Assembly: GCF_000219725.1 (NCBI RefSeq)
Contig: NC_015732.1
Location: 496,001 to 560,000 of the forward strand
DNA: 64,000 nucleotides
Source of the DNA: Gracilinema caldarium DSM 7334
GTDB taxonomy: Bacteria > Spirochaetota > Spirochaetia > Treponematales > Breznakiellaceae
Direction: 5' to 3'
Numbering within the stretch: position 1 is the stretch's first letter; each line of letters begins with the position of its first letter. The notes beneath the pieces were generated by a model. The model worked only from the letters and a program-made list of their open reading frames with translations. It ran no database searches and had not been told where the DNA came from. A program made the translations under genes and the position numbers. This document shows positions 29,163 to 30,086 of the stretch, piece after piece.

Positions 29163-29459
29163 GTGTCTTTGGATGATGCGCTTCCTAAAGAAGCTGTTCT
29201 GGTCCAGGTATATGGTATTGTCCAGGGGGTTGGTTTCCGTTATGCAGCCCAGGCTCAAGCTCGAAAATTGGGTGTTGTTGGATGGGTCAAAAATTGCCAT
29301 GATGGATCTGTAGAGGTCTATGCAGAAGGAAATCCTGCAAAGCTTTCGAAATTAATATCCTGGTTGCATCATGGTCCCCCTGCTGCAACGGTCGACCGTG
29401 TACAACTAACACGGGTTCGTCCTATAGGGAGTTTTCACCGCTTTTCTATTGAATACTGA
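29163..29459 (+). CDS. acyP: Acylphosphatase
   Basis: 98 residues from GTG 29163. Both active-site residues of the family are seen: Arg in YGIVQGVGFR (near residue 28) and Asn in GWVKNCHDGSVEV (near 45). It hydrolyses acyl phosphates such as acetyl phosphate. That would fit a place beside response regulators, which can be charged by acetyl phosphate; this link is inference. It starts 5 nt after the receiver gene. Confidence 0.93.
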   Translation: MSLDDALPKEAVLVQVYGIVQGVGFRYAAQAQARKLGVVGWVKNCHDGSVEVYAEGNPAKLSKLISWLHHGPPAATVDRVQLTRVRPIGSFHRFSIEY

Positions 29460-29467
29460 CCGAATTC

Positions 29468-29497
29468 TTGACAGGCGGTCAATCTTTTTGGTATAGT
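29468..29497 (+). promoter_or_regulatory. tRNA-Gly promoter
   Basis: TTGACA (29468-29473), 18 nt, TATAGT (29492-29497). Start expected near 29504, leaving a 5' leader of about 17 nt that includes the arm pairing past the CCA end. Confidence 0.7.
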
Positions 29498-29510
29498 TAC
29501 GCTACCTTCT

Positions 29511-29600
29511 GCCCCCTGGAGCGGCCGTCGTATAACGGCATTACCCGAGCTTCCCAAGCTCGTGACGCGGGTTCGACTCCCGTCGGCCGCTCCAGGGGGC
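29511..29600. repeat. 17-bp inverted repeat formed by the tRNA acceptor stem and its flanks
   Basis: GCCCCCTGGAGCGGCCG (29511-29527) and its exact complement at 29584-29600. The inner 7 bp are the acceptor stem. The outer 10 bp pair the discriminator and CCA with the 5' leader and add a GCCCCC/GGGGGC clamp. Confidence 0.9.
29521..29594 (+). tRNA. tRNA-Gly, anticodon CCC
   Basis: 74 nt folding as a cloverleaf: acceptor GCGGCCG/CGGCCGC, the GTATAACGGCATTAC D arm typical of glycine tRNAs, anticodon stem CGAGC/GCTCG with loop TTCCCAA (CCC), and T arm CGGGTTCGACTCCCG. CCA is encoded. It has its own promoter and lies tail-to-tail with luxS. Confidence 0.96.
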
Positions 29601-29606
29601 GGTGTT

Positions 29607-30086
29607 TTATGACGGGTACTCTAGGTTTTCCGATAAGGGATGTTTGAGCACATCCAGGAAACGGAGCGCCTCCCACCGTGCCATATCCAGATTATGGTCT
29701 CGCCAGTTGCCACATTCAGCCGCCGACGCCCCCGGAATTTCATCAACATATGACGCAATCCATTGGTACATCTCGGTTATGACAGACAAGACATCGAGGG
29801 ATGAAAGATTCCCTTCGAGGATGACATAGAAGCCGGTTCTGCAGCCCATGGGGCCAAAATAAACAATCCGGCTTCCCCATTGGGGATGGGATCGAAGAAA
29901 GGTGGCGCCCAAGTGTTCTATAGTGTGGGATGTGGGGACATCTAATACGGGTTCACGGTTGGGTTCTTTCATACGAATGTCAAAGGTGGTGAGAACTGTG
30001 TTACCGAAGCGATCTTTCCGGGATACAAAGATACCCCGTTTCATACGGATATGATCTACGGTAAAGCTGGCTATTTTTTTCATCAA
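29607..30086 (-). CDS. luxS: S-ribosylhomocysteine lyase (AI-2 synthase)
   Basis: 159 residues. Metal ligands His54 and His58 (HTIEH) and Cys125, catalytic Cys82 in FGPMGCRTGFY and Glu57 are all present, matching the known B. subtilis residues. It converts S-ribosylhomocysteine to homocysteine and the AI-2 precursor DPD. mtnN is 33 nt upstream on the same strand, giving the full two-step recycling of S-adenosylhomocysteine. Confidence 0.97.
   Translation of the reverse strand: MMKKIASFTVDHIRMKRGIFVSRKDRFGNTVLTTFDIRMKEPNREPVLDVPTSHTIEHLGATFLRSHPQWGSRIVYFGPMGCRTGFYVILEGNLSSLDVLSVITEMYQWIASYVDEIPGASAAECGNWRDHNLDMARWEALRFLDVLKHPLSENLEYPS

Follow-up and report, generated by a model that had tools for sequence, protein, structure and literature searches.

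In a monocistronic tRNA-Gly(CCC) gene, leader and trailer probably make up an intrinsic terminator stem, with the folded tRNA itself as the loop. The gene is the sole tRNA gene that ARAGORN finds in the 64-kb window (the whole stretch of DNA analyzed here, 64,000 nt from Gracilinema caldarium), and the host genome is one contig of 3,239,340 bases. As the preliminary description had claimed, the leader pairs perfectly with the discriminator, CCA and the next six bases: the reverse complement of 29511-29520 (GCCCCCTGGA) matches 29591-29600 (TCCAGGGGGC) at every base, and these ten Watson-Crick pairs, here called the arm, sit atop the 7-bp acceptor stem without a bulge, making a continuous helix of 17 bp.

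If this reading is true, the tRNA gene dispenses with a separate terminator, its own fold becoming the terminator loop; termination would be tied to correct tRNA folding and would yield a precursor that RNase P should dislike. In the few isoacceptors concerned, experiments could directly address how pre-tRNAs with a sequestered 3' end are processed. The reading also bears on the odd encoded CCA in a phylum that a survey reports to encode none (PMC5143459) and leads on to nested tRNA loci in relatives. A literature search confined mostly to journals outside subscription turned up no description that we recognized of a tRNA as the loop of its own terminator, or of a tRNA nested within a tRNA.

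Architecture of the Locus

The features of the locus are collected in Table 1; between 29163 and 30830 the gene order is acylphosphatase, tRNA-Gly(CCC), luxS and a gene of the nucleoside phosphorylase superfamily (Pfam). The tRNA-Gly(CCC) has the cloverleaf and anticodon of a tRNA gene, with T at 29591 as discriminator and CCA at 29592-29594. Folding extends the arm by U29510·G29601 and C29509-G29602, to 12 pairs, or 19 bp in total with the acceptor stem. The 108 nt of 29505-29612 fold at -64.9 kcal/mol; shuffles average -39.6 kcal/mol (z -7.4), and none of the 200 is as stable.

Table 1. Features at and around the tRNA-Gly(CCC) gene, in window coordinates.
Feature	Position	Strand	Basis and remarks
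Acylphosphatase gene, upstream of tRNA-Gly(CCC)	29163-29459	+	Pfam 3.7e-26
-35 hexamer TTGACA of predicted promoter	29468-29473	+	Consensus scan
-10 hexamer TATAGT of predicted promoter	29492-29497	+	Consensus scan; spacer 18, extended -10 TG at 29489-29490
Arm, 5' strand (leader)	29509-29520	+	Partner 29591-29602; kept in L004-L006
tRNA-Gly(CCC) with encoded CCA	29521-29594	+	ARAGORN; Rfam RF00005 at 29521-29591, 56.4 bits, above cut-off
Arm, 3' strand (discriminator, CCA, GGGGGC, GG)	29591-29602	+	Sequence, fold
U-tract TGTTTTAT, 6/8 T, directly 3' of arm	29603-29610	+	Sequence; GTTTTAT kept in L004-L006
luxS, convergent, stop codon within U-tract	29607-30086	-	ORF; Pfam LuxS 1.7e-55

The predicted promoter matches 11 of 12 consensus bases over both hexamers (one such match found, 0.4 expected in shuffles). 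The usual spacing from -10 to start predicts that transcription begins at ~29504, a few bases 5' of the arm, so the arm should be part of the RNA; a start within the extension, which the preliminary description had named as fatal to its idea, is not what the promoter predicts. On the other side of the gene, UGUUUUAU follows the arm directly and overlaps the stop codon of luxS, and CCA lies only 12 nt from that codon. Promoter, arm, tRNA, second arm strand and U-tract thus succeed one another with almost nothing in between.

A terminator scan finds no separate terminator between tRNA-Gly(CCC) and luxS. Its sole match there is a 7-pair hairpin at 29586-29603, which borrows the acceptor strand and precedes the arm's own U's. 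This hairpin was set aside as the terminator because it uses the acceptor strand; by eye, it carries one mismatch in L004-L006. It could still terminate if the acceptor stem were given up, and in that respect it counts against the arm as terminator.

Like bacterial intrinsic terminators, the locus offers a GC-rich stem and then a U-rich tract at the end of a transcription unit. The stem is stable (12 arm pairs, ending at 29602), and a U-tract of 8 nt (TGTTTTAT, 29603-29610) begins directly after it, inside the 0-2 nt usual for such terminators. The difference is that the strands flank a gene: a whole tRNA lies between them and the stem is stacked on the acceptor stem, so that in place of a short loop of 3-8 nt there are 70 nt of tRNA (29521-29590). 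To our knowledge, such a structured loop is unlike that of any intrinsic terminator described, which counts against the terminator reading. The helix and its energy, the promoter match directly upstream, the U-tract and the short distance to the luxS stop codon argue for it.

From the helix with its conservation and recurrence, the promoter match, the U-tract and the missing separate terminator, all read from sequence, we infer start and stop sites, termination and the order of processing as follows. RNA polymerase would start at ~29504, just 5' of the arm, and transcribe the arm, the tRNA and the second arm strand; folding of the tRNA during transcription would bring the two arm strands together; and the 19-bp coaxial helix would close directly before UGUUUUAU, releasing the polymerase at ~29606-29610, in the luxS overlap. 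The product would be a panhandle precursor of ~105 nt, almost without free ends, whose arm would have to be opened by RNase P, aided by the encoded RCCA or acting after RNase III has cut the stalk, before the tRNA could mature.

Standing of the Arm in Its Genome and Genus

The comparison with other tRNA genes of the genome, for which the preliminary description had called, sets tRNA-Gly(CCC) apart. The Rfam tRNA model finds 48 tRNA genes, and when the flanks of all 48 are compared, contiguous pairing outward from -1/73 reaches 12 pairs (one G·U) at tRNA-Gly(CCC) and at most four at any other. A hairpin terminator lies close 3' of 19 of the 48 genes by our own criterion; tRNA-Gly(CCC) is without one. 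The tRNA-Arg(UCU) gene of the same genome (L063) may have a weak relative of the arm: a distal leader-trailer helix of 7 bp, past eight positions of which only two form Watson-Crick pairs. At tRNA-Val(CAC), a sister genome (G001, L290) has an 11-bp arm and a U-tract, and the arm of the host's counterpart (L296) looks degenerate.

Conservation of the flanks, the other comparison called for, is likewise found. The arm is present in all four genomes of the genus searched (the host's and those of L004, L005 and L006). In L004-L006, CTGCCCCCTGGA precedes the tRNA and TCCAGGGGGCAG follows it, forming 12 Watson-Crick pairs; the host has G at 29601 where the others have A, and the pair is kept as U·G. 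The GTTTTAT motif is retained across L004-L006 while other flanking letters vary. By tblastn over 16 loci, where some contigs end nearby, luxS lies behind tRNA-Gly(CCC) in L003-L007 and the acylphosphatase gene near it in L003, L005, L006, L008, L011, L012, L013 and L016. The acylphosphatase-tRNA-Gly(CCC) neighborhood is thus common to several genera, and the common neighbors indicate that this is largely one and the same locus.

In L007 (G017), where luxS is likewise convergent, a classical terminator, AAGCCCC...GGGGCTT and then TCTATTTTT, stands right after the discriminator, and the 10 leader bases present on that contig do not pair and form no arm. To judge by these letters, the difference between L007 and the genus reads as though one type of terminator had been swapped for the other. 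The arm and GTTTTAT kept in four of four genomes, together with a classical hairpin at the same place in L007, argue for the terminator reading.

Recurrence of Arms Among Spirochaete tRNA Genes

Differently lettered arms occupy the same position in other genera. Among the 30 loci L003-L032 (the host's included) they are found in L011 and L019, from other genera of the family, in L016 and L017, from one genus of another family, and in L025, from a further genus there. Arms were scored ungapped from -1/73, so that those with bulges or beginning farther out are missed. In the first samples, 56 distinct tRNA genes formed two groups by score: six had at least 8.5, one had 5.5 and the others 2.5 or less. 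The threshold of 8 was set after this split; in the samples added later the gap is filled, for 15 of the 368 genes score between 4 and 8, and nine of these are Val(CAC), Pro(GGG) or Gly(CCC).

A scan of genomes for tRNA-Gly with a TGGA leader returned 18 contigs; a tRNA-Gly was found in five, all from spirochaetes, and not in the other 13. Two of the five (L105 and L112) are genus members already seen. L104 (Treponema sp. SZUA-426) has a Gly(CCC) arm, GCTTCTTGGA/TCCAAGAAGC, of 10 Watson-Crick pairs followed by TTTTTTATTTT, or 14 pairs if those running into the T run count. The tRNA-Gly(UCC) genes of L107 and L108 have 14 and 12 arm pairs and U-tracts. Nearly all tRNA genes of three arm-bearing genomes were scored, and tRNA-Pro(GGG) and tRNA-Val(CAC) carry arms as well: G027 has arms at Gly, Pro and, weaker, Val (44 genes), G019 at Gly, Pro and Val (42 genes), and G012 at Gly (38 genes). 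One Pro arm (L267) ends in GCGGC-TTTTTT.

Altogether, 56 of 368 distinct spirochaete tRNA genes with at least 20 nt of flank carry arms scoring at least 8, in a set that is enriched for the isoacceptors searched for and whose genes are related, so that p-values overstate independence. The arms belong to Val(CAC) (35/66), Pro(GGG) (11/34), Gly(CCC) (7/46), Gly(UCC) (2/9) and Val(GAC) (1/5), and all other isoacceptors have none among 208 spirochaete genes. For these counts, duplicate genes were collapsed by sequence; cloverleaves of low score, genes flanked by less than 20 nt and 13 non-spirochaete contigs were excluded. The first Pro(GGG) sample is biased upward, its query having contained arms; the Val(CAC) query was the tRNA body alone, with the best matches taken first and then two further batches. 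Pattern matching brought in the two Gly(UCC) cases and L336; L360 was chosen for its partial copies and L336-L340 for matching the nested pattern described below, only L336 adding a gene to the counts.

Chance complementarity of GC-rich flanks could be entertained on the grounds that only one gene of the host genome shows an arm. Yet when the leaders of all genes then sampled are re-mated with the trailers, 32 of 16416 combinations reach the threshold, and with shuffled trailers 20 of 32900 do, against the 7/46 of Gly(CCC) and 35/66 of Val(CAC), and within the genus the arm stands in all four genomes with one pair-preserving change. These sequence comparisons already refute chance, to which we assign a vanishingly small probability. 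Re-mating within an isoacceptor gives scores of at least 8 in 22 of 8999 Gly, 328 of 6381 Pro and 130 of 6014 Val combinations, Pro arms being partly homologous. No arm scores at least 8 among 43 distinct tRNA genes of three spirochaete genomes not chosen for arms (the best 30 loci, with few relevant isoacceptors), and none exceeds 3.5 among 82 tRNA genes of four non-spirochaete genomes, a gene set without Val(CAC), Pro(GGG) and Gly(CCC).

U-Tracts and Promoters

A U-tract, defined as at least 6 T in some 8 bases beginning -3 to +4 from the arm end, is found at 31 of the 56 arms; of 297 non-arm genes, 5.7% have one at the corresponding offsets. Before the last gene batch it was present in 16 of 25 Val(CAC), four of seven Gly(CCC), two of two Gly(UCC) and two of 11 Pro(GGG) arm genes. 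It is absent by this definition from 25 of 56 arms, including nine of the 11 Pro(GGG) arms, and termination therefore cannot be their sole role.

Promoter matches are found in 24 of the 35 arm genes examined. In eight of these 24, 21-28 nt separate the end of the -10 box from +1, which would leave a leader of little more than the arm. In the other 16 the -10 box lies 38-91 nt away, and this, with the 11 of 35 genes that have no promoter match, speaks against the arm as a pure terminator. Differently lettered arms in other genera, U-tracts at more than half of the arms and these short leaders favor the terminator reading. Separate downstream terminators are not significantly rarer in arm genes (3/34 versus 19/79 non-arm genes, p 0.07), which counts against the arm as terminator; terminator avoidance was accordingly dropped as a test of arm function.

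Of the two roles that had been suggested at the outset for the extended stem, that of a terminator has gained ground from the U-tract after the arm, the lack of a separate terminator before luxS, the L007 hairpin and the recurrent U-tracts. Protection of CCA as the general purpose of the arm finds no such backing, for 40 of the 56 arm genes have no exact CCA.

Covariation and the Arm as a Possible Processing Helix

In nine homologous Pro(GGG) arms, from genes chosen for having arms, eight of 13 pairs have changed on both sides and 92.3% of cells pair. None of 500 shuffles reaches the observed value on four of five measures, the fifth (further pair types) being reached by 148 of 500, and no slide reaches it. 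Nine Val(CAC) genes of genus g28, comprising all genus genes matched irrespective of arm score (6.5 to 12), pair in 82.5% of cells, and three of 14 pairs have changed on both sides; the covariation score exceeds that of all 500 shuffles, and the count of three double changes is reached by 31 of 500. Several g28 members have mismatches near the tRNA end of the arm. The pattern of changes indicates that the arm is maintained as a helix in both sets. Covariation on a first alignment of eight chosen Gly genes was inflated because its rows had been picked for pairing, and the g28 set and the re-mating null were used instead.

Pairing kept through two-sided changes (8/13 and 3/14 pairs), as well as the existence of arms without a U-tract, also fits a different role, in which the arm is a leader-trailer helix cut by RNase III or another double-strand nuclease, RNase P and exonucleases then finishing the ends. 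The model would be the leader-trailer helices of pre-16S and pre-23S rRNA, which are described as RNase III substrates (PMC10250234): there, too, complementary flanks close a structured precursor RNA and covary between relatives, and complementary flanks surround the mature tRNA-Gly(CCC) in the same way. The arm, the acceptor stem and the T stem could together form a continuous helix of ~24 bp, judging from tRNA geometry, and both RNase III and RNase Z are encoded. The rRNA helices, however, are given as 25-40 bp (PMC10250234), and here only 12 bp lie past the acceptor stem, or 19 with it, short of 25 bp outside the mature RNA, around a monocistronic tRNA and with a U-tract at the end. A processing helix would also leave unexplained the U-tracts that stand at the arm end in over half of cases. 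We regard it as an unlikely but serious alternative to the terminator reading.

Encoded CCA and Precursor Processing

CCA is encoded in 16 of the 56 arm genes and in five of the 312 others (p 1e-10, relatedness not corrected). Before the last gene batch, bases 74, 75 and 76 were C, C and A in 73%, 62% and 64% of 45 arm genes, against 16%, 16% and 54% of 87 non-arm genes of the same isoacceptors. In a survey of CCA templating, the Spirochaetae are entered as templating CCA in no gene (PMC5143459), which makes the CCA of tRNA-Gly(CCC) unusual; with only two of the 48 host genes having CCA after the discriminator, tRNA-Gly(CCC) and tRNA-Glu(UUC), it is an exception in its own right. The tRNA-Glu(UUC) gene is followed by CCA in three spirochaete genomes (the host's own L067, L229 and L169), in a phylum reported to encode none.

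Arm and encoded CCA coincide more than expected, and an unusual 3' route for arm precursors is plausible on these sequence counts. In E. coli, leader bases -1 and -2 that pair with the discriminator and CCA likewise extend the acceptor stem and slow RNase P, two RCCA pairs being reported to lower its kcat/Km 13-fold (PMC9433436); here the pairs number 10-12, not two, and run past CCA. If two pairs have such an effect in that report, an arm of 10-12 bp should matter for the order of processing, and its opening should be a distinct step. RNase P might compete better with the arm thanks to the encoded RCCA, or the RCCA might be required where an exonuclease replaces RNase Z, and the excess of CCA in arm genes fits both roles. 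The exonuclease route, in place of RNase Z and CCA addition, is also what the processing-helix alternative would use, and the excess of CCA in arm genes is a further point in its favor.

Possible Template Switching and Nested tRNA Loci

Perfect arms might also have arisen without function. A template switch by the replication fork at the tRNA hairpin would copy leader into trailer or the reverse and make a perfect palindrome in one step, and arms and nested copies would then be functionless traces at dispensable isoacceptors. Monttinen and Loytynoja report that template switching creates and mends RNA stems (PMC8794818), and by analogy it offers a one-step origin for perfect arms. Many arms begin exactly at -1/73 without a bulge, although the score, anchored there and ungapped, favors such arms, and the genes concerned are also where palindromes, hairpin inserts and nested partial copies cluster. 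The likeness to the published cases lies in the perfect inverted repeats at the stem; the difference is that those concern rRNA and microRNA genes (PMC8794818), whereas here the repeats sit at tRNA ends, recur at the same isoacceptors and are tied to U-tracts. The confinement to few isoacceptors (0/208 others), the U-tracts, the CCA-like bases 74-76 and the upkeep within genera point to selection instead, and arms as mere by-products of mutation seem improbable to us. An origin by template switching is compatible with later use as a terminator.

In six Pro(GGG) loci (L188, L243, L245, L255, L264 and L360) and seven Val(CAC) genes (L336, L337, L338, L339, L293, L297 and one in L299; L337, L338 and L339 are the genes of L283, L298 and L291), the arm-tRNA-arm unit is flanked on both sides by fragments of another copy of its tRNA. 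A piece of positions 1-26 lies upstream, mostly ending at position 26 or within 2 bases of it, and a piece from beyond ~27 lies downstream. A recognized second copy is found on one side only in L172 and L285. All 14 modules examined have, outside the arm and separated from it by 5-17 unpaired bases per strand, a further helix of 8-16 bp that closes the insert; its letters differ in most modules, and it is reached by 0 to 19 of 500 shuffles.

L291 has three 5' halves preceding the intact tRNA, and by eye its matching arms stand at two levels. In L298 only the insert interrupts an otherwise whole outer tRNA, which carries an arm and a U-tract of its own, and both levels fold as a single nested structure at -124.1 kcal/mol. 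In nested loci, an inner arm with its U's lies upstream of the outer 3' half; constant termination at the inner arm would leave that half untranscribed, yet it is intact in L298, a point against a pure terminator. Promoter matches lie upstream of some nested loci, and hairpins with T runs are seen by eye downstream in L188, L245, L255 and L264. The strict two-copy Val pattern occurs in five of 390 genomes of the order. Misassembly is an unlikely source of such loci, since the levels have unlike arms and the contig that carries L360, from a genome of ~10 contigs, is 176 kb long.

Taken with the terminator reading, these loci allow a doubtful and quite tentative proposal: the arm-tRNA-arm unit may be a self-contained module that ends its own transcript, often encodes RCCA contrary to what is usual in its phylum and in relatives has repeatedly inserted itself at 26/27 of its own isoacceptor, giving tRNAs nested in tRNAs, each level with its own complementary stalk. 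The tRNA-Gly(CCC) gene of the window, at which no outer tRNA copy is found, would be the simplest member. In L016/L074, a second copy of tRNA-Gly(CCC) lies downstream of the first, with hairpin-rich insertions in the D loop and T loop and again with the trailer TCAAGGGGCG; upstream, the leader is tandemly duplicated.
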